A DNA stretch of 64,000 bases from Cellulomonas sp. KRMCY2 (GTDB taxonomy: Bacteria > Actinomycetota > Actinomycetes > Actinomycetales > Cellulomonadaceae), in contig NZ_JAGF01000001.1 of assembly GCF_000526515.1 (NCBI RefSeq), forward strand, positions 3,658,001 through 3,722,000, read 5' to 3'. The notes below the pieces were generated by a model. The model worked only from the letters and a program-made list of their open reading frames with translations, did not search any database and was not told the origin of the DNA. The translations under genes were made by a program, and so were the position numbers. Every line of letters starts with the position of its first letter. Position 1 is the first letter of the stretch. Below, one piece after another: positions 14,806 through 23,105 of the stretch.

Positions 14806-14821
14806 ATACCCGCTGGGGTAT
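14806..14821. promoter_or_regulatory. CsoR/CstR-type operator copy 1 (imperfect)
   Basis: ATACCCGCTGGGGTAT, an imperfect copy of the 16-nt palindrome found three more times in the next 7 kb. It lies about 76 bp before the CoA-disulfide reductase fusion. C/G tracts flanked by ATA/TAT are the hallmark of CsoR-family (DUF156) operators, including the persulfide-sensing CstR branch. Regulator assignment is inference from the sulfur genes that follow. Confidence 0.6.
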
Positions 14822-14897: not shown

Positions 14898-17381
14898 ATG
14901 AAGATCGTCGTCGTCGGTGGCGTCGCAGCCGGTATGTCCATCGCCGCTCGCGCGCGTCGGCTCGACGAGTTCGCCGAGATCGTCGTGCTCGAGCGGGGCC
15001 ATCACGTCTCGTTCGCGAACTGCGGGCTCCCGTACCACATCGGTCAGGTGATCACCGAGCGCGACCGGCTCATGCTGCAGACGCCGCAGAGCCTCAGCGA
15101 GTCGCTCGACATCGATGTACGCGTGGGCAGTGAGGTGGTCGGCATCGACCGGGCCGCGAGGACTGTCACCGTCCGCGACGTCGACTCCGGGGAGCTCACC
15201 GAGGAGACCTACGACGCGCTGGCGCTGACCCCCGGCGCCATCCCGATCCGACCGAACCTGCCCGGCATCGACCATCCGGCGGTGCACGTGCTGCGCCGGA
15301 TCGGCGACATGGACGTGATCAAGGCTGCGGTCGACGGCGGCGGCGGCGCCAAGCGGCAGGGCGGGATCGGCCACGCCGTGGTGATCGGCGCGGGCTACAT
15401 CGGCCTGGAGATGGCCGAGAACCTGCACGAGCGGGGCGTGAGCGTCGAGATCGTCGAGATGGCCGACCAGATCATGCTGCCGCTGGACCGTGAGCTCACC
15501 ACCACGATGGAGAACTACCTCCGCGCGCACGGCGTCGCCCTGCACCTGCGCACGGCGGCCGCCGCGTTCGCCGAGCGTGCGGACGGCCAGGTCCGGGTCG
15601 AGCTCAAGGACGGGTCGGTGATCGACACGGACATGGTCGTCCTGGCGGCGGGTGTCCGGCCGAGCACGGAGCTCGCGGTCGCCGCAGGCCTCGAGCTCGG
15701 TCCTCGGGGCGGCATCAAGGTCGACCGCCACATGCGGACCTCGGACCCGCACATCTGGGCAGCCGGTGACGCGGTCGAGGTCGAGCACACCGTGCTGCCC
15801 GACACCTGGCTGATCCCGCTCGCCGGGCCCGCGAACCGTCAGGGCCGGGTGGCCGCGGAGAACATCTGCGGCCGGGAGACCGTGTACGAGTCCACCCAGG
15901 GCACCTCGGTCGTCAAGGTCTTCGACATGGTCGCGGGCGGGACGGGTGCGTCCGAGAAGCAGCTCGTCGCAGCCGGTGTGCCCTACGCAGCGGTCCAGAC
16001 CCACCCGCACGGTCACGCCGGGTACTACCCCGGCACGGCGATGATGCACATGAAGCTGCTCTTCGCGCCCGACACCGGTCGCATCCTCGGCGCCCAGATC
16101 GCCGGCTTCGACGGCGTCGACAAGCGGCTCGACGTGCTGGCCACGGCATTGCGCGCGGGGATGACGGTCGAGGATCTCGAGAGCCTCGAGCTGTCCTACG
16201 CACCGCCGTTCGGCTCCGCGAAGGACCCCGTGAACATGATCGGCTTCGTCGCGGCCAACACGCTGCGGGGCGACCTCGCACTGTGGCACGCGGGTGACTA
16301 CCCGGGCGCGACCGACGGTGCCCGGATCGTCGACGTCCGTGGTCCGGACGAGTTCGCGCTCTGGCACCTGCCGGGCGCCGAGAACGTGCCGCTCAAGGAC
16401 CTGCGGACCCGTCAGGAGACCTGGGACCGGAACGTCCCCATCCGGCTCTACTGCGCCGTCGGCTTCCGCAGCTACCTGGCCTACCGCTCGCTCGTCCAGC
16501 GGGGCTTCACCGACGTCCGGACGCTCTCCGGCGGGATGGCGACCTTCCGGGCCTTCCACGACGTCACGCCGAGCGAGATCGACTCCCCCACGCCCGTGAT
16601 CTCCTATGCGGAGACCGCACCGGCGCCGACGTCCACCGGGGTCCTGCTCGACCTGGACTGCACCGGGCTGGCCTGTCCGGGCCCGATCATGAAGCTCCAG
16701 GAGGCCATCAAGACCCTCGGGGCCGGCGACGAGGTCCTCGCCCACGTCTCCGACTCGGGCTTCCGCCTCGACGCACCTGCGTGGGCGACCAAGAACGGGC
16801 ACACGATCGTGTCCTTGGTCCCCGAGGGAGCGGGCTACGCCGCGCGGATCCGCAAGGGCGCACCGGTCGGTGGCACCTTCGCGGCGGTGAGCGGCGCGGC
16901 GGCGCGGATCACGGACAAGAAGTCGTTCGTCGTCTTCTCCGGCGACCTCGACAAGGTGCTCGCGGCCTTCATCCTGGCCAACGGCGCCGTCGCGATGGGC
17001 GACGAGGTCTCGATGTTCTTCACGTTCTGGGGTCTGAACGCGCTGCGCAGGGACGACCCGCCGGCCCGGCAGCGCACGGTCATGGACAGGGTGTTCGGCG
17101 CGATGCTGCCGTCCGGTGCGGGCGACCTCAAGCTGTCGACGCTGCACATGCTCGGCGGAGGTACGGCGATGATCAAGAAGGTGATGCGGGCGAACAAGGT
17201 GCCGAGCCTGCCGGAGCTGATCGGCTCGGCCCAGGCGTCCGGCGTCCGGCTCGTGGCGTGCACGATGACGATGGACCTGCTCGGGATCGCGCAGGCGGAC
17301 CTGATCGACGGGGTCGAGCTCGGCGGGGTGGCGACCTTCCTCGGCGAGGCCAACGAGTCCAACGGCGCCTTCTTCATCTGA
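14898..17381 (+). CDS. CoA-disulfide/persulfide reductase fused to rhodanese, TusA and DsrE domains
   Basis: An 827-residue four-module protein. Residues 1 to about 440 form an FAD/NAD(P)H disulfide reductase of the CoADR type with GGVAAGMS and the single active cysteine C42 in FANCGLPYHIG. About 464-557 is a rhodanese domain with active C519 (YCAVGFRS). About 580-650 is a TusA domain with C593 in GLACPGP. About 665-827 is DsrE/F-like, with C788 in VACTMTMDLL. Related CoADR-rhodanese enzymes reduce CoA or glutathione persulfides and polysulfides with NAD(P)H, and the TusA/DsrE parts relay sulfane sulfur. An operator-like palindrome precedes it, and thioredoxin follows. Confidence 0.92.
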   Translation: MKIVVVGGVAAGMSIAARARRLDEFAEIVVLERGHHVSFANCGLPYHIGQVITERDRLMLQTPQSLSESLDIDVRVGSEVVGIDRAARTVTVRDVDSGELTEETYDALALTPGAIPIRPNLPGIDHPAVHVLRRIGDMDVIKAAVDGGGGAKRQGGIGHAVVIGAGYIGLEMAENLHERGVSVEIVEMADQIMLPLDRELTTTMENYLRAHGVALHLRTAAAAFAERADGQVRVELKDGSVIDTDMVVLAAGVRPSTELAVAAGLELGPRGGIKVDRHMRTSDPHIWAAGDAVEVEHTVLPDTWLIPLAGPANRQGRVAAENICGRETVYESTQGTSVVKVFDMVAGGTGASEKQLVAAGVPYAAVQTHPHGHAGYYPGTAMMHMKLLFAPDTGRILGAQIAGFDGVDKRLDVLATALRAGMTVEDLESLELSYAPPFGSAKDPVNMIGFVAANTLRGDLALWHAGDYPGATDGARIVDVRGPDEFALWHLPGAENVPLKDLRTRQETWDRNVPIRLYCAVGFRSYLAYRSLVQRGFTDVRTLSGGMATFRAFHDVTPSEIDSPTPVISYAETAPAPTSTGVLLDLDCTGLACPGPIMKLQEAIKTLGAGDEVLAHVSDSGFRLDAPAWATKNGHTIVSLVPEGAGYAARIRKGAPVGGTFAAVSGAAARITDKKSFVVFSGDLDKVLAAFILANGAVAMGDEVSMFFTFWGLNALRRDDPPARQRTVMDRVFGAMLPSGAGDLKLSTLHMLGGGTAMIKKVMRANKVPSLPELIGSAQASGVRLVACTMTMDLLGIAQADLIDGVELGGVATFLGEANESNGAFFI

Positions 17382-17435: not shown

Positions 17436-17451
17436 ATACCCCCAGGGGTAT
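17436..17451. promoter_or_regulatory. CsoR/CstR-type operator copy 2
   Basis: ATACCCCCAGGGGTAT, palindromic except at the centre, 26 bp before the thioredoxin start. It is identical to the copy at 18725-18740. Its position overlapping the likely promoter fits repression. Confidence 0.65.
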
Positions 17452-17477: not shown

Positions 17478-17846
17478 ATGGCCACCGTCAACCTGACCAC
17501 CGAGACGTTCGACGCGACCACCGAGGCCGAGGGCATCGTCCTGGTCGACTTCTGGGCCGCGTGGTGCGGTCCGTGCCGGAGGTTCGGCCCGGTCTTCGAG
17601 AAGATCTCCGAGCTCCACCCGGACGTCGTCTTCGCCAAGCTCGACACCGAGGCCGAGCAGGAGATCGCGGCCCGCCTGTCGATCACGTCGATCCCGACGC
17701 TGATGATCTTCCGCGACGGCACCCTGCTCTTCGCCGACGCCGGCGCCCTGCCGGGCAAGGCACTCGAGGACCTCATCGCCCAGGCGCGCGGCCTCGACAT
17801 GGCCGAGGTCCGCCGCCAGGTCGCAGCCGAGTCCCCGGCGTCCTGA
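17478..17846 (+). CDS. trxA: Thioredoxin
   Basis: A 122-residue thioredoxin with the canonical WCGPC active site (W29-C30-G31-P32-C33), VDFWAAWCGPCRRFGPVFE, and the cis-proline loop TSIPTLMIF. ATG 17478 follows GAGGAG. It lies under an operator copy and 97 bp after the CoADR fusion, so it probably supplies reducing power to resolve persulfides in this island. The next two genes (17850 and 18245) are close enough to share its transcript. Confidence 0.94.
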   Translation: MATVNLTTETFDATTEAEGIVLVDFWAAWCGPCRRFGPVFEKISELHPDVVFAKLDTEAEQEIAARLSITSIPTLMIFRDGTLLFADAGALPGKALEDLIAQARGLDMAEVRRQVAAESPAS

Positions 17847-17849
17847 GCC

Positions 17850-18248
17850 GTGCGGTCGGCGGCAGGGCAGCAGGCACCGACCGACGACGGGGTCGCTGAG
17901 CTCGTCGTGCACCTGCGGGCCCGCGAGGACGAGGCGCTCGGGCAGATGTCGCGCGTCCTGGCAGGCACGGCCCTGTGCGCCGTCGGCCCGGACGAGACGC
18001 ACCGCGTCAAGTACCTCGAGGGCGTCTCCGCGGCGCTCGCCCAGGTGCGTCGGACCCTGGTGAGCCGCGGTCGGTCCGGCGCCCTGCAGGACGAGCCGGC
18101 GGCAGTCGTCGCCGAGATCCGGCAGCAGTGGAGGTCGACTGCAGGCGCAGCCTCGACCCGGGGCCAGGCCTGGGCGCGGTACCTGGCCGGTGCGCTCGAC
18201 GCCCTCGACGAGCTGGCGACGACCCTCACGACCGGAGAGACCCCATGA
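17850..18248 (+). CDS. Hypothetical protein, helical, thioredoxin-linked
   Basis: A 132-residue, Ala/Arg-rich, mostly helical protein with no membrane segment or signal. It starts with GTG only 3 bp after the trxA stop. It has a single cysteine (GTALCAVG) and no CsoR-type Cys/His/Cys set, so it is not the missing repressor. Its stop overlaps the start of the next gene (ATGA). Family not recognised. The operon position suggests a role beside thioredoxin. Confidence 0.7.
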   Translation: MRSAAGQQAPTDDGVAELVVHLRAREDEALGQMSRVLAGTALCAVGPDETHRVKYLEGVSAALAQVRRTLVSRGRSGALQDEPAAVVAEIRQQWRSTAGAASTRGQAWARYLAGALDALDELATTLTTGETP

Positions 18249-18667
18249 CCCTGACCCGACCCACCCAGCCCACCAGGCCCACCCAGGTCCAGCGGCTGAC
18301 CGGGCGTCGCTCGACCCGGCGGGTCGCGGTGGCCGCAGCCGTCGCACCTGTGCTCTTCGTCGGGCTGTCCGCCGTCAGCGGCGGCGTCGACCTCGTCGGC
18401 GCTCCGGTCTGGACCATCCTGGTGGCCCTGATCGCGTCCGTCGGTGCGACGGTGCTGGCGACCTACGTCCCCGTGGCCGGGTCCTGGCGGCATCCGGCGA
18501 TCGGTTGCACGCCGTGCGCCGTCGTCGCGGGACTGACCGTCCTGGCATCCGCGGCGGTCCTGAACGGCGGGCCCGGCCAAGTGCCGACAGCGGTCCTCGC
18601 CCTGCTCGTCACCGGCTTCGGGCTCGCGCAGCGGCTGCGTGACCCGGGTACCTGCGCACGGCCCTGA
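18245..18667 (+). CDS. Small integral membrane protein with a GCTPC motif
   Basis: A 140-residue protein with a basic N-terminal tail (about 30 residues, TRPTQP-type repeats) followed by four predicted membrane helices. A GCTPCAVV motif lies in the loop or start of the third helix, giving a CxxC pair that could be redox-active or metal-binding. It is translationally coupled to the preceding hypothetical gene (ATGA). Family not recognised. As the third member of the trxA transcript, membrane thiol exchange is a guess. Confidence 0.65.
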   Translation: MTLTRPTQPTRPTQVQRLTGRRSTRRVAVAAAVAPVLFVGLSAVSGGVDLVGAPVWTILVALIASVGATVLATYVPVAGSWRHPAIGCTPCAVVAGLTVLASAAVLNGGPGQVPTAVLALLVTGFGLAQRLRDPGTCARP

Positions 18668-18724
18668 GCTCCGCCGCGCGGCGTCCGTGTGGTGGGTGCC
18701 ATAGCCTGTCGACTGGCGTTCTCC

Positions 18725-18740
18725 ATACCCCCAGGGGTAT
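18725..18740. promoter_or_regulatory. CsoR/CstR-type operator copy 3
   Basis: ATACCCCCAGGGGTAT, identical to copy 2, located 38 bp before the start of the 38-residue cysteine-rich protein. Confidence 0.65.
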
Positions 18741-18778
18741 GCTGTCGACGAACCTACCGACCGATCGAGGAGTACACC

Positions 18779-18895
18779 ATGTGCAGTCCGGCTCGTTGCT
18801 CACGCTGCGGGAACGTCACCTGGAGCGGCTGCGGCATGCACGTCGACGCCGTCATGGCCAGTGTGCCCGTCAGCCAGCAGTGCACCTGCCGCTGA
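18779..18895 (+). CDS. 38-residue cysteine-rich mini-protein
   Basis: ATG 18779 is preceded by GAGGAG at a good distance and opens a 38-codon frame. Cysteines are at 2, 7, 10, 18, 35 and 37, arranged as CxxC (RCSRCG), WSGCGMHV with one His, and a terminal CTCR. I recall small proteins of the pattern CxxCG(K)xTWxGCGxHVxxV in many bacteria, usually unnamed. The Cys/His content suggests a zinc-knuckle or metal or sulfane-sulfur carrier. The operator copy 38 bp upstream places it in the sulfur regulon. Confidence 0.75.
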   Translation: MCSPARCSRCGNVTWSGCGMHVDAVMASVPVSQQCTCR

Positions 18896-18916
18896 CCCCA
18901 CGGCGCACCACGACGC

Positions 18917-18956
18917 ACGCCCCGCGGTACGAGCCCAGGCTCGTCCGGCGGGGCGT
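18917..18956. terminator. Bidirectional stem-loop between convergent genes
   Basis: A strong inverted repeat: ACGCCCCGC...CGAG, a six-base loop region CCCAGG, then CTCG...GCGGGGCGT. It sits between the stop of the Cys-rich ORF (+) and the stop of tauE (-), the expected place for a shared terminator. No long T tract, as is usual in high-GC actinobacteria. Confidence 0.6.
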
Positions 18957-18995
18957 TCGTCGTCCTGGCGCCGGCCCGGCTGCGGGGCGTGCCGC

Positions 18996-19817
18996 TCAGA
19001 AGAGCTGCGGAACGCTCCGCACAGCGGTGTAGACCGCGACGACGACGAGCAGGATGGTGAACGCCAGGCTCAGACGGGCCGGGCTCACCCGTGAGACGAC
19101 CCGACTGCCCAGAAGGCTGCCGACGACTGCCGCAGCCGTGAAGCCACCGATCAGGGCCCAGTCGAGCGTCACGTCCTGACCGATCCGCGAGGCCAGTGCC
19201 GTCGCGCTGTTGATCGCGATGACGACCAGGGACGTCCCGACGGCCACCGGCATCGACAGGCCGAGCGCGAGCACGAGGGCGGGTACCACGGCGAATCCGC
19301 CACCCACCCCGAAGAAGCCCGTGAGCAGGCCCACGCCGGTGGCCGTCCCCAGCACCGTGCCGGCTCGTGGCCAGTCCACCCGCACGTGCGGGCGCCAGAT
19401 GACGATCGGTGCCGGCTCGGCGGCCGGCTGGGCCCCGGGAGCGATCCGTGCCTGCTGGTGGCGTCGCCAGGTCATCAGGGCGGCGACCACGAGGATCAGG
19501 AAGGCGAAGCCCGTCAGCAGGACCTCGTCGGGGACTGTCGTCGAGAGCCGTGAGCCGACGTAGGAGCCGATGACCCCGAGCAGGCCGAAGGCGATGCCCT
19601 GGCCGATCCGGACGCGGCCGACGCGCTGGTGCGGGATCGCCCCGATCACCGACGTCACGCCCACGATGAGCAGGGATGTCGTCGTCGCGGCGCGGGAGTC
19701 CTGCCCGAACAGGTAGACCAGCGCCGGGACCGCGAGGATCGAGCCGCCCCCGCCCAGGGAGCCGACGCTGAGCCCGATCACCAGGCCGACCGGGATCAAC
19801 CACGCGAGCACTGTCAC
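18996..19817 (-). CDS. TauE/SafE-family sulfite/sulfur-compound exporter
   Basis: A 273-residue membrane protein with two repeats of the TauE motif: [22 protein letters not shown] near the N-terminus and [21 protein letters not shown] in the second half, with about 8 helices in all. Family members export sulfite, thiosulfate, sulfoacetate or related anions. GTG start at 19817. It follows the persulfide dioxygenase gene by 82 bp on the same strand. The dioxygenase makes sulfite, so TauE exporting the product is a natural pathway inference. Confidence 0.88.
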
Positions 19818-19899
19818 GTCCCTTCGGACGGCGCGGGCACCGGGACGGGGCCACGCCCGGGGATGTTACCGAGCGCCGTGCGGACGGCGCGCGGCGGCA

Positions 19900-21270
19900 T
19901 CAGGCGGCCTGGCCCTGCACCAGCGGCAGGCCGGCGGCAGCGGCGTGCTCGGCGAACGAGTCGTCGACGTGCACCACCCGACGGCCGTGCGCAGCCAGCA
20001 GCGACGCGGCGATCGACGCGCGGTACCCACCGGCGCAGTGCACCCAGACCTCACCGTCCGGCACCTGGTCGAGGCCCTGCAGCAGCGCGTGCAACGGGAT
20101 GCTGACGGCACCGTCGATGTGGCCGTCACGCCACTCGCTGGCCCGGCGGACGTCCAGGACGGCGACCGGTCGGTGGTGACGGACCTGGGACAGGTCGGCG
20201 AACGTCGCCCGCTCGATCGTGGCCAGCACCTCGTCGGTCCACTCGGCGGGCGTCCCGGTTGCTGCGGCGGCCGGCCGGTCGATGCCGATGCGGACGAGCT
20301 CGCGCTGGGCCTCGGCGACCTGCTCAGGGCTCTCGCCGAGGAGGGTGACCGGGGTGCCCCACGGGATCAACCAGCCCAGATAGGTCGCGAACTGGCCGTC
20401 GAGACCGAAGTTGAAGGTCCCCGGGACGTGTCCGGATGCGAACGCGGTCCGGGTGCGCAGGTCGACGAGCCACTCTCCTGCGGCCAGTCGCCGGCGCAGC
20501 TCGGCCTTGTCGGCCCGCTCGGGTGCGGTCAGGTCGGGCGCGGACGGCCCGGCGGAGTTCGCCGGCCCCATGTGCACGTAGTAGGCCGGGTAGGCGTCGA
20601 GGCCTGCGACGATCTCGGCGACGTAGTCCTCCTCGTCCTTGCTCAGCGCGGGGTTGCTCCGGCGCTCCTGGCCGATGGTCGAGCCGGTGGCGCCGTCCGT
20701 CGTGGCCGTCGCCGAGCAGAAGCTGCCGAAGCCGTGCGTCGGCATGACCTGCGTCTCGTCCGGCAGCTCGGCGGCGAGCTTGTGGGCGGAGGCGTACTGG
20801 TGCCGCGCAAGGGTGTGGGTGTGCGCGGCACCGAGCAGGTCGGGGCGCCCGGTCGAGCCGAACAGCAGTGAGCCGCCGGAGAAGACGACCGGCTCGGGGC
20901 CCTCCAGCACGTACGACAGGTGGGTGAAGGTGTGGCCTGGCGTGTGCAGCACGCGAACCTGCAGCTGGGGGCTGACGTCGATGACGTCGCCGCCGCGTAC
21001 CGGGACGCGCTCGAAGGTCACCGGGTCGTCGGCGTTGACGAGGTACTGGGCGCCGGTCGCCTCGGCGAGGGCATGTCCGCCGGTGACGTAGTCGTTGTGG
21101 ATGTGCGTCTCGAGCACGTGCGTGATCCGCACGCCGGCGCGGGTGGCGGTGTCGAGCATCCGGTCGATGTCGCGCTGAGGGTCGACGACGAAGGCGACCT
21201 CGCCGTCGTGCACGAGGTAGCTCCGGTCACCGAGGGACGGGGTCTCGATCGGGACGATGGTGTGGCTCAT
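19900..21270 (-). CDS. Persulfide dioxygenase-rhodanese fusion (MBL fold)
   Basis: A 456-residue protein. Residues 1 to about 235 are an ETHE1-like metallo-beta-lactamase domain with iron ligands in ETHIHNDYVTGG (H56-x-H58-x-D60; the last His of HxHxDH is Tyr, as I recall for this fused branch) and VLHTPGHTFTH. About 270-355 is a rhodanese fold lacking a catalytic cysteine. About 370-456 is an active rhodanese with VHCAGGYRA. It oxidises low-molecular-weight persulfide to sulfite, and the rhodanese moves sulfane sulfur. It is cotranscribed with the upstream single-domain rhodanese and probably tauE. Confidence 0.92.
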   Translation of the reverse strand: MSHTIVPIETPSLGDRSYLVHDGEVAFVVDPQRDIDRMLDTATRAGVRITHVLETHIHNDYVTGGHALAEATGAQYLVNADDPVTFERVPVRGGDVIDVSPQLQVRVLHTPGHTFTHLSYVLEGPEPVVFSGGSLLFGSTGRPDLLGAAHTHTLARHQYASAHKLAAELPDETQVMPTHGFGSFCSATATTDGATGSTIGQERRSNPALSKDEEDYVAEIVAGLDAYPAYYVHMGPANSAGPSAPDLTAPERADKAELRRRLAAGEWLVDLRTRTAFASGHVPGTFNFGLDGQFATYLGWLIPWGTPVTLLGESPEQVAEAQRELVRIGIDRPAAAATGTPAEWTDEVLATIERATFADLSQVRHHRPVAVLDVRRASEWRDGHIDGAVSIPLHALLQGLDQVPDGEVWVHCAGGYRASIAASLLAAHGRRVVHVDDSFAEHAAAAGLPLVQGQAA

Positions 21271-21349
21271 GGTGGTCCTGTCTGATCGGTCGCCGCACGG
21301 CGGCGGCACAGCGGTCGAGGTGCAGCGGTCGAGGTGTGGGTCGCCGGGC

Positions 21350-21673
21350 TCAGGAGGCGTTGGGGTGCGGGCCGACGACGACCGGGCGCCCGGAACGGAC
21401 CCACTCGCCGGTGCCGCCCTGGACGGAGAGCGCATCGAAGCCGTTGCGGGTCAGGAGGTCGGTCATCACCCGGCTCCGGTTCCCGCTGGCGCAGATCACG
21501 TAGATCCGCTCGTCGCGGGGAAGGTCACGCACCCGCGCGGGGAGCTGCCCGACGGGAATCAGCTGAGCACCGGGGACGTGACCGGTGACGTACTCGTGCG
21601 GCTCGCGGACGTCGAGCACGAATGCACCGTCCGCCTGCGCCGCGGCGAACGCCTGGACCTGCACCTCTGGCAT
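21350..21673 (-). CDS. Single-domain rhodanese (sulfurtransferase)
   Basis: A 107-residue rhodanese with VLDVREPHEYVTGHVPGA and the active-site loop VICASGNRSR (one catalytic Cys), plus GGTGEWVRSGRP at the C-terminus. ATG at 21673 lies 25 bp after the perfect operator palindrome. The persulfide dioxygenase gene begins 79 bp downstream on the same strand, so it is the first gene of a rhodanese/dioxygenase/TauE transcript. Confidence 0.93.
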   Translation of the reverse strand: MPEVQVQAFAAAQADGAFVLDVREPHEYVTGHVPGAQLIPVGQLPARVRDLPRDERIYVICASGNRSRVMTDLLTRNGFDALSVQGGTGEWVRSGRPVVVGPHPNAS

Positions 21674-21698: not shown

Positions 21699-21714
21699 AT
21701 ACCCCCGGGGGTAT
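21699..21714. promoter_or_regulatory. CsoR/CstR-type operator copy 4 (perfect palindrome)
   Basis: ATACCCCCGGGGGTAT, a perfect 16-nt palindrome in the 63-bp gap between the BlaI-like gene and the rhodanese gene. It is the most symmetrical of the four copies and would cover the promoter of the rhodanese/persulfide dioxygenase operon. Confidence 0.7.
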
Positions 21715-21736: not shown

Positions 21737-22165
21737 TCACGCGTCGCATTCCGCGAACCTCGTGGATCCCGCTGCAACGGGCGGGTCGGACCGGCGTGAG
21801 CCCGGACGAAGGGCGTCCCGCAGGGCGGCCCGGTCGTCGGACCCAAGGGCACGGACGAGGTCGCGCAGGGTTCCGGGACGGTCGTCGCTCGCCGCGAGCT
21901 CCTGGGCCATGAGCCCGGCGACGTACTCGCTGCGCTCCAGGCGCGGTCGGTAGGACCAGGCGCGTTCGGTGCTGACCCGCTCGACGAGGCCCTTGCGCAT
22001 GAGGTTCGTCAGGACTGTGGCGACGGTCGTGTACGCCAGGGTCGTCGTGGTCAGCCGTTCGAGGACGCGCCGGGTGCACAGCTCGTCGGCACAGGACCAG
22101 AGCACGTCCATCACCTGGCGCTCGAGCGCACCGAGGCGGGGCAGCGGCGTCGTCCGGTCAGGCAT
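21737..22165 (-). CDS. BlaI/MecI/CopY-family transcriptional repressor
   Basis: A 142-residue winged-helix protein: LGALERQVMDVLWSC, then YTTVATVLTNLMRKGLVER, the recognition helix and wing of BlaI/CopY repressors. Family members are inactivated either by proteolysis (BlaR/MecR partner) or by metal (CopY). No BlaR-type protease gene is adjacent, and the CopY CxCx4CxC tail is absent, with only scattered cysteines. Its start overlaps the preceding membrane protein gene by 8 bp, so it is probably the last gene of the permease/thioredoxin block. Confidence 0.85.
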   Translation of the reverse strand: MPDRTTPLPRLGALERQVMDVLWSCADELCTRRVLERLTTTTLAYTTVATVLTNLMRKGLVERVSTERAWSYRPRLERSEYVAGLMAQELAASDDRPGTLRDLVRALGSDDRAALRDALRPGSRRSDPPVAAGSTRFAECDA

Positions 22166-22784
22166 GCGGGGCCCCCATCGGCACGAGGCACATGACCTGC
22201 CCCCGGAGCCGGACGAGCAGCGCGGCCGCGGTCGTCAGGAGCGCGACGGCGGCCAGGTAGGGCTGGACCGGTGCGAACCAGGTGATCGCTCCCGAGTAGC
22301 CGAGCGCGAGCAGGGCGAGCTTGTTGCAGACCGGGCAGCCGACCGCGAACCAGGTCAGGATCCCGCCGGCCACGCCGAGCTTGCTCGGGGTGTCCGTGCC
22401 GTCCTCACCGGCGAGGACCTCGGGGGCACCGTCCGCGCCGTCGTCGGATCGGCGCGCGGCCCTGCCCTCGGGGCGGACGTAGGTGGCCGCGAGCATCCCG
22501 GCCAGGACCGAGGTGATGATCCACACCGGGTAGTTCCACGCCAGAACAGGGATCTCTCGGCCGAACACCGGGTTGGGGATCAGCACGGTCGGATAGCCGA
22601 TCATGAGGGCGAACGCCACCGAGAACAGGCCGGCGGCCAGGTACTGGCGGGCCGTCCAGCCGCGAAGGCCGAGGGCGGCGGCGCGCAGGGTGCGAGCCGG
22701 CTCGGCACCTGGGAGGGAGCCGACGTCGGGTCGCGCCGAGATGGTCACCGGTTCGCTGCTGCGCGTGGAGGGAGTCGAGGACAT
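22158..22784 (-). CDS. Integral membrane protein with conserved CPVCNK motif
   Basis: About 208 residues (or 214 from ATG 22802) with a basic N-terminus, about 5 membrane helices and a central acidic cytoplasmic loop. The notable motif is GCPVCNKLALLALGYSGA, a CxxC pair at the mouth of a helix. No family name is recognised. It lies between a thioredoxin-like gene and a BlaI repressor and overlaps the latter by 8 bp. A membrane thiol or metal role is inferred only from the CxxC and the neighbours. Confidence 0.7.
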   Translation of the reverse strand: MSSTPSTRSSEPVTISARPDVGSLPGAEPARTLRAAALGLRGWTARQYLAAGLFSVAFALMIGYPTVLIPNPVFGREIPVLAWNYPVWIITSVLAGMLAATYVRPEGRAARRSDDGADGAPEVLAGEDGTDTPSKLGVAGGILTWFAVGCPVCNKLALLALGYSGAITWFAPVQPYLAAVALLTTAAALLVRLRGQVMCLVPMGAPHA

Positions 22785-22791
22785 GGACCTA

Positions 22792-22804
22792 CTATGCGGC
22801 ATAG
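22792..22804. promoter_or_regulatory. 13-bp palindrome at the start of the CPVCNK membrane gene
   Basis: CTATGCGGCATAG is a perfect palindrome lying 8 bp before ATG 22784 and containing the alternative ATG 22802. It could be an ArsR/SmtB-like operator (AT-rich ends, short dyad) or chance. It argues for the downstream start codon. Confidence 0.35.
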
Positions 22805-22830: not shown

Positions 22831-23073
22831 TCAGGCGACGTACGGCGTCAGGAGCTCGCGGACGTGACCGGCCGTGGGTACCCGGCCGGAGAGCACGACC
22901 TTCTCGTCGACGACCAGCGCCGGTGTACGCATGACCCCGTAGCCGGCGATCGCCGCGTAGTCGGTGACCTTCTCGATGTCGGCATCGATGCCCATCGCTG
23001 CGACCGCCTCACGCGTGACCCGCTCGAGGTTGACGCAGTTCGCACAGCCGGGTCCGAGAACCTTGATCTTCAT
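22831..23073 (-). CDS. Thioredoxin-family small redox protein (CxxC)
   Basis: An 80-residue thioredoxin-fold protein (redox-active disulfide protein 2 type): KIKVLGPGCANCVNLERVTREA with active site CANC, cis-Pro in MRTPALVVDEKVV, and SGRVPTAGHVREL. These minimal thioredoxins are typically encoded next to DUF318/ArsP permeases, as here, and may deliver electrons or metal(loid) to the permease. ATG 23073 follows GGAGG closely. It lies 32 bp after the permease gene. Confidence 0.9.
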   Translation of the reverse strand: MKIKVLGPGCANCVNLERVTREAVAAMGIDADIEKVTDYAAIAGYGVMRTPALVVDEKVVLSGRVPTAGHVRELLTPYVA

Positions 23074-23105
23074 GGTGGCCTCCTGGTGGTGATGGTGGTG
23101 AGCTG

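Follow-up and report, generated by a model that had tools for sequence, protein, structure and literature searches.

The open reading frame (ORF) at 18779-18895 (+) of the window, by which we mean the whole 64,000-nucleotide stretch of DNA analysed, probably encodes a persulfide-inducible, metal-binding microprotein of an unnamed bacterial family. Judging from sequence comparison, the metal would most likely be zinc. The gene was assigned to a persulfide regulon on the basis of its operator, its genomic neighbourhood and the type of repressor.

The ORF translates to MCSPARCSRCGNVTWSGCGMHVDAVMASVPVSQQCTCR, a protein of 38 aa with six cysteines (positions 2, 7, 10, 18, 35 and 37) and a single histidine (position 21). 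The first-pass annotation had described a tiny ORF with an excellent ribosome site, six Cys in CxxC, CG and terminal CTC motifs and one His, and the sequence is as described, the terminus reading CTC-R. The elements of the gene are as follows.

18767-18772 (+): Shine-Dalgarno-like GAGGAG, 6 nt 5′ of the ATG
18779-18895 (+): microprotein gene, 38 aa, with the ligands C2, C7, C10, C18, H21, C35 and C37
18901-18973 (+): long hairpin between the microprotein gene and the convergent TauE gene

A Shine-Dalgarno-like string was also found upstream of 107/121 homologues. A longer in-frame ORF, starting with GTG at 18689, is present as well; a start codon stands at the Met-Cys position in all 121 homologues (ATG in 114, GTG in 6, TTG in 1), and the one annotated plasmid homologue that was inspected likewise starts there. 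The ORF was compared with eight relatives picked among the closest (72-83% nucleotide identity), and a simple codon count gave pS values of 0.63-0.92 against pN values of 0.04-0.11. The flanks, 60 nt on each side, are 18-45% identical in the same eight relatives by ungapped comparison. Because the differences from these relatives are mostly synonymous, we take 18779-18895 to be a genuine gene which, by this codon comparison, is under codon-level purifying selection.

No sigma-70-like promoter was found for the gene in a promoter scan. Folding of 18896-18975 gave -57.6 kcal/mol (z -5.58), and the hairpin at 18901-18973 is a candidate terminator shared by the microprotein and TauE genes; no terminator was found downstream of the microprotein gene by a T-run rule, hence it would not be a classical intrinsic one. 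With this strong hairpin ahead of the convergent TauE gene, the microprotein unit looks monocistronic. These features also bear on the idea that a short, Cys-rich ORF with a good ribosome site is a cysteine-sensing leader (attenuator) of a downstream gene rather than a working protein. We consider this scarcely credible and rejected it, since nothing downstream on its own strand has a family match until 21.6 kb, the genes at 18996-21673 lying on the minus strand. Moreover, the hairpin stands 3′ of the ORF, and residues other than Cys are equally fixed: among the 69 homologues that were not pattern-selected, G17, G19 and H21 never vary, and position 15 is always W, Y or F.

The genes and operators surrounding the microprotein gene in the window are listed below.

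14806-14821: operator upstream of the CoA-disulfide-reductase-like fusion gene
14898-17381 (+): fusion of pyridine nucleotide-disulfide reductase, rhodanese, TusA and DsrE2 domains
17436-17451: operator before the thioredoxin gene, identical to that of the microprotein gene
17478-17846 (+): thioredoxin (TIGR01068 over its cut-off)
18725-18740: CstR/ScCsoR-type operator ATACCCCCAGGGGTAT of the microprotein gene, a 16-mer with 0 mismatches on both strands
18996-19817 (-): TauE/SafE family protein, convergent with the microprotein gene
19900-21270 (-): metallo-beta-lactamase (MBL) fold plus two rhodanese stretches, persulfide-dioxygenase-like
21350-21673 (-): single-domain rhodanese
21699-21714: operator upstream of the rhodanese and MBL-rhodanese genes

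The protein at 19900-21270 may be compared with SCO0618 of S. coelicolor, described as a PDO-like domain with a rhodanese (PMC7533328). Two genes after thioredoxin, at 17850-18248 (+) and 18245-18667 (+), have no Pfam match; the second has the appearance of a small membrane protein and carries a CTPC motif, and similar ORFs occur at 6/80 relatives' loci (best 80 of 587). Beside the regulon lies a thiol-related cluster, at 22158-22802 (-), 22834-23091 (-) and 21737-22165 (-), comprising a membrane-like GCPVC-motif protein without a Pfam match, a Thioredoxin_3 protein and a Penicillinase_R-type repressor. ORFs similar to the GCPVC-motif protein were seen at 7/80 relatives' loci (best 80 of 587).

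The operator of the microprotein gene lies 38 nt upstream of it and, as had been claimed, is identical to that of thioredoxin, ATACCCCCAGGGGTAT being found at both 18725-18740 and 17436-17451. When up to 2 mismatches were allowed and both strands were scanned, ATACCCCNNNGGGTAT matched the window 8 times, at four places; 100 shuffles gave an expectation of 0.30, with no more than 3 matches in any of them. ScCsoR of S. coelicolor is described as binding ATACCn6GGTAT, from which it is released by sulfane sulfur (PMC7533328), and the microprotein operator fits this published form. Across the 4.5-Mb genome, TACCCCNNNGGGTA was found at 9 places and the reversed control pattern at 0. Eight of the 9 places, the microprotein gene included, are at sulfur or thioredoxin genes:

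Window: four places, including that of the microprotein gene
L125: places at rhodanese-cstR-methyltransferase-like genes and at CoADR-rhodanese genes
L002: place at trx-DUF302-second microprotein copy
L127: place at a rhodanese with a lipoprotein-like start

The place at L126:4083-4096 is an overlap with the 5′ end of tRNA-Gln, and such overlaps are a trap for genome-wide motif scans. The second microprotein copy, also of 38 aa and 76% identical, lies outside the window at L002:1504-1617 (-), or G000:C1:1669816-1669929. On its strand it is preceded by an operator and by genes for thioredoxin and DUF302, an arrangement in which it probably shares an operon with the thioredoxin gene.

Three CsoR-family proteins are encoded in the genome. 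The one in the regulon (at L125) has C-G-C at the C-H-C positions, i.e. it is a two-Cys repressor without the copper-ligand His, and the two His-bearing proteins adjoin heavy-metal ATPase genes. Among the relatives, 42 of the 43 CsoR-like neighbours of the microprotein have a residue other than His at the copper-ligand position and the remaining one is gapped there, the single His row in the tally being the copper-type reference from the genome itself; 33/43 lie within 2 kb of the microprotein. This residue assigns the CsoR-like neighbours to the persulfide type.

This distinction matters for a further reading, in which the protein is a MymT-like copper metallothionein under a copper-sensing repressor of the CsoR/RicR type. 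The protein is indeed small and Cys-rich with a CsoR-family palindrome upstream, and the site of ScCsoR has been likened to that of RicR (PMC7533328). Moreover, a CopA-like ORF is present at 5/80 loci (best 80 of 587), and a multicopper oxidase gene at one plasmid locus. However, not only do the CsoR-like neighbours lack the copper-ligand His, but no TACCCN4GGGTA site was found in the 9-10 kb around the two His-bearing CsoR genes, a copper gene was found at 0/9 of the operator places in the genome, and neither Pfam nor NCBIfam gave a family match up to E 1. We therefore rejected copper-type control on the type of repressor and regard this reading as very improbable.

The neighbourhood of homologues, which the first-pass annotation had proposed as a check, was read at the best 80 of 587 confirmed loci from named relatives, a set leaning to close relatives. 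The strict operator was found within 160 nt at 44 of these 80 loci, compared with 32/4489 distant background tiles; this count leaves out L001 and L003 (the window itself). A persulfide-type gene was present somewhere in the fetched locus in 51/80 (best 80 of 587), and 68/80 (best 80 of 587) had either such a gene or, no more than 160 nt away, a site in one of the two forms, strict or published. Persulfide-type genes were CstR, rhodanese, MBL, CoADR, TauE, SQR and DsrE ORFs at phmmer E 1e-6, a loose cut-off for the neighbours other than CstR that carries no background rate. With a looser set of three operator patterns, 57/121 loci were positive, counting the window and leaving out L001 and L003. 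A rhodanese gene is directly 5′ of the microprotein at several loci (L035, L042, L043, L045). On two plasmids the unannotated ORF lies between a ‘metal-sensitive transcriptional regulator’ and sulfur genes, namely rhodanese/DsrE/TauE on one and MBL/rhodanese/TauE on the other. A third plasmid has a regulator, DUF302, an MMPL transporter and a multicopper oxidase near the microprotein, and a fourth has DUF2892, a relaxase and a hypothetical protein.

CstR-type repressors (best E ≤1e-15, tallied by hand) were found in 53/74 genomes with the microprotein versus 36/123 without it, an odds ratio of 6.1 that ignores kinship. As 36 of the 89 genomes with such a repressor have no microprotein, the protein is dispensable for the CstR response. 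At five loci from other classes (L024, L027, L028, L030 and L032) the operator TACCCTAKGGGGTA and the microprotein start codon ATG overlap, which suggests leaderless transcripts that may be shut directly by the repressor.

The persulfide link of the family is not universal. The placement of the gene in a persulfide regulon by the first-pass annotation is upheld by operator, neighbourhood and repressor type, but many members have no close operator and some have no sulfur neighbours. In the small-genome family f94, consisting mostly of 1.2-1.5 Mb genomes, a CstR-type repressor was found in only 2 of the 15 members listed with the microprotein. The strict operator was found at 0/8 of the repressor-less f94 loci read (L156-L163), and inspection by eye likewise found a rhodanese, MBL, CoADR or CstR neighbour at 0/8. 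Adjacent genes there are of aromatic acid exporter/FUSC type, zinc-type dehydrogenase and Na+/H+ antiporter, together with GNAT, solute-binding protein and Cons_hypoth698 (family test on 7 proteins from 5/8 loci). At L161 the microprotein follows the Cons_hypoth698 gene, which belongs to a family of putative sulfate exporters. In an f94 member with a repressor (G388, locus L164) the operator precedes the microprotein, and the ORFs beside it look, by eye, like MBL-rhodanese and TauE. The strict operator was found at 0/10 Myxococcota loci read, most with only 1.5 kb of flank; at one locus the microprotein adjoins a CoADR-like gene, and at L090 it follows an OsmC gene. Eight listed members of the large-genome group f6/g8, with genomes of 7.1-9.9 Mb, gave no microprotein match.

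Members of this kind are what would be expected if the protein were a general zinc-binding adaptor, or a zinc-finger microprotein, serving a housekeeping function, persulfide control being merely added in many Actinobacteria; the aromatic and basic tail of the long forms might, for example, bind a partner or the membrane. This reading would account for retention in genomes of 1.2-1.5 Mb that have no CstR-type repressor, for the eight loci without recognised sulfur neighbours, for the Myxococcota loci without the strict operator and for the presence of the microprotein on two tailed-phage contigs. A hydrophobic/aromatic plus basic end was picked up in 63/70 long forms by a loose regular expression (e.g. 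FLSRLFGR, WWPFGKK). However, the 38-aa form in the window has no tail at all, and the operator frequency among relatives (44/80 at the best 80 of 587 loci) is far above background. We hold the adaptor reading to be possible, though we lean against it, and favour the persulfide-inducible zinc microprotein.

The family is widespread, as seen in the homologue search that the first-pass annotation had suggested. Within the order, homologues were found in 73/149 genomes and 41/65 genera, and within the class in 74/197 genomes and 42/91 genera. The class survey included a partial match at a contig end (G437:C22) and one match, L178, which has none of the cysteines and was dropped as spurious. The phylum survey gave 41/296 genomes at E 0.01. 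Six of its rows, at E 7.7e-4 or weaker, all lack the cysteines and were discarded as spurious; five of these were the sole match of their genome, leaving 36/296. In the Myxococcota, the phylum of the Myxococcales MAG G467, 28/140 genomes have a homologue. Named relatives with the microprotein include Cellulomonas, Actinotalea, Arthrobacter, Cryobacterium, Rhodococcus, Mycolicibacterium and Corynebacterium (best 80 of 587). They were searched with the pattern [TS]WxGCGxH[VI][DE], by which those columns are fixed in that set. Similar short Met-Cys proteins are known from other kingdoms.

Mobile elements were also screened. A match was found in 85/72,556 plasmid records, from ten genera that are named, all actinobacterial, and 3 more beyond these. 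No annotated feature lay under the match in 39/40 plasmid rows (among the matches listed, the gene table being incomplete), in keeping with the remark that such a gene is easily missed in annotations. A phage collection gave one weak, unannotated match in a human-faecal ‘phage’ record (MT835623). Of 22 pattern matches in IMG/VR, 2 contigs were confirmed, each encoding a microprotein of 37 aa. Matches to phage tail, structural and ribonucleotide reductase proteins mark them as tailed phages; a terminase was found in 0/2. The phage microproteins (L183:4001-4111 and L184:4001-4111) have all seven ligands, and 2OG-Fe(II) oxygenase-like genes are among their neighbours; the first contig (L183) also has a phage ribonucleotide reductase there.

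Searches of Pfam and NCBIfam (up to E 1) and of PHROGs gave no family match for the microprotein, and sequences of solved structures gave none either (best E 0.089). Members are mostly 37-75 aa long with an invariant Met-Cys start. The long frames of L165-L168 raised the possibility that the microprotein is part of a fusion protein, which was rejected for these matches as no upstream domain could be recognised by eye; at L165-L167 the upstream frame seems, again by eye, to be out of register with a gene ending at the microprotein ATG.

The ligand pattern is strongly conserved. C2, C7, C10, C18, H21 and C35 were kept in 158/158 distinct homologues from a profile search, so the loss of cysteines in relatives, named in the first-pass annotation as the result that would count against it, was not seen. 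The seventh ligand is a Cys, as CxC, in 121/158 and a His in 37/158 (CxxH in 35, CxxxH in 2), and is absent in none. The search had kept 159 distinct sequences, from which L178 was removed. The 158 comprise 69 genome-survey loci and 89 pattern-selected sequences, in which C18 and H21 are preset by the pattern, and since homologues were collected by similarity, members that have lost ligands may have escaped. A later set including phage and Myxococcota sequences, which may overlap the 158 as the two were not de-duplicated against each other, has all seven ligands in 46/46 (25 CxC, 19 CxxH and 2 CxxxH).

A fixed Cys/His set with Cys-His interchange is the pattern of a zinc-binding microprotein. 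In general chemistry, exchange of Cys for His is tolerated by a metal ligand and not by a sulfur-transfer cysteine. The interchange at the seventh ligand thus favours metal binding over a sulfur-carrying cysteine. The first-pass annotation had left the choice between a sulfane-sulfur and a metal carrier; on this evidence the metal role is the favoured one, and nothing found points to a metal-free sulfane-sulfur carrier in particular. Such a carrier would receive a persulfide from rhodanese on one Cys and hand it on, and would suit an operator common to rhodanese, TusA- and DsrE-domain proteins, as well as the rhodanese genes directly 5′ at L035, L042, L043 and L045. However, the terminal Cys is His in 37/158, which would be intolerable for a sulfur-transfer Cys at that position, and a carrier would not need the remaining five Cys and the His, none of which varies. 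Moreover, no Pfam match of TusA, DsrE or DsrC type was obtained, although the fusion protein encoded nearby gave matches to TusA and DsrE_2. We think the carrier quite unlikely.

An AlphaFold2 model of the 38-aa form predicts a strand at 3-6, a CxxC turn, a strand at 13-16 and a helix at 22-27, with moderate confidence (pLDDT 82.4, pTM 0.46). The long form was modelled at pLDDT 67.4. The 38-aa model matched no known zinc fold (Foldseek best E 7.4; VIA-align).

Taken together, these data suggest how the persulfide-inducible zinc microprotein might operate. Rising sulfane sulfur would cause the CstR-type repressor to let go, and the microprotein would be made along with thioredoxin, rhodaneses and the persulfide dioxygenase-like protein. 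Removal of the N-terminal Met would leave an N-terminal Cys; MetAP removes Met from Met-Cys N-termini. The ligands would then hold one or two zinc ions. Tentatively, the protein may act as a zinc-thiolate buffer, taking up sulfane sulfur and/or zinc freed by persulfidation and being reset by the co-regulated thioredoxin, much as reported for mammalian GIF/MT-3 (PMC12618007). The link to thioredoxin lies in the operator sequence common to both genes and in the second copy, downstream of Trx and DUF302. More speculatively, and we would call this unlikely, the family could be a bacterial counterpart of the zinc-persulfide metallothionein, with zinc-thiolates that absorb sulfane sulfur as zinc is released, a thioredoxin reset, and zinc held by the seven ligands plus the freed N-terminal amine; phages might then carry it to hold the thiol and zinc pools of the host.

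Lastly, we compared the microprotein with known systems. The CstR/ScCsoR regulon shares the operator class ATACCn6GGTAT and a CsoR-family repressor (PMC7533328). The S. coelicolor circuit includes a sulfite transporter, a rhodanese and a persulfide dioxygenase that itself carries a rhodanese domain, and the window has the same kinds of partner, namely a PDO-like protein with rhodanese, a rhodanese and a TauE-type transporter (PMC7533328). It differs in that the published circuit, as given in that excerpt, consists of four genes with no microprotein described (PMC7533328). Mammalian GIF/MT-3 is likewise a small Cys-rich protein; it is reported to bind zinc by way of persulfide sulfur, and thioredoxin serves in its regeneration once it has been oxidised (PMC12618007). 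It is a mammalian protein, and the likeness is drawn without any claim of sequence relation. GIF/MT-3 is longer and has many more Cys than the microprotein. The microprotein differs further in its fixed His, in a site that is either Cys or His, and in its fold, which is predicted to be compact. HVO_0758 and HVO_2753 of Haloferax volcanii, zinc-finger micro-proteins linked to swarming and biofilm, are similar in being shorter than 70 aa, in being easily overlooked and in their Cys-based metal site, which for our protein is only inferred (PMC10716476). They have two C(P)XCG motifs each (PMC10716476), whereas the microprotein has one CxxC (C7-x-x-C10-G), a CGxH and a CxC/CxxH, and is often under persulfide-type control. 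MymT, too, is a small Cys-rich protein with a CsoR-family repressor. It is a mycobacterial copper metallothionein, and its repressor is copper-sensing. By contrast, the repressor of the microprotein is of the persulfide type, and no family model matched.

No comparable small metal or thiol protein was found in the open-licence literature on the persulfide response, and exact family peptide strings did not occur in open-licence literature. Neither small zinc proteins nor persulfide regulons are new in themselves; the family inside the regulon did not turn up in that literature, though it may have been published elsewhere. The bacterial persulfide response is so far known by its sensors and enzymes. 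If the reading given here is true, the handling of zinc would be tied to sulfane sulfur by a gene family that has been overlooked, although even genomes of 1.2-1.5 Mb retain it and phages carry it.
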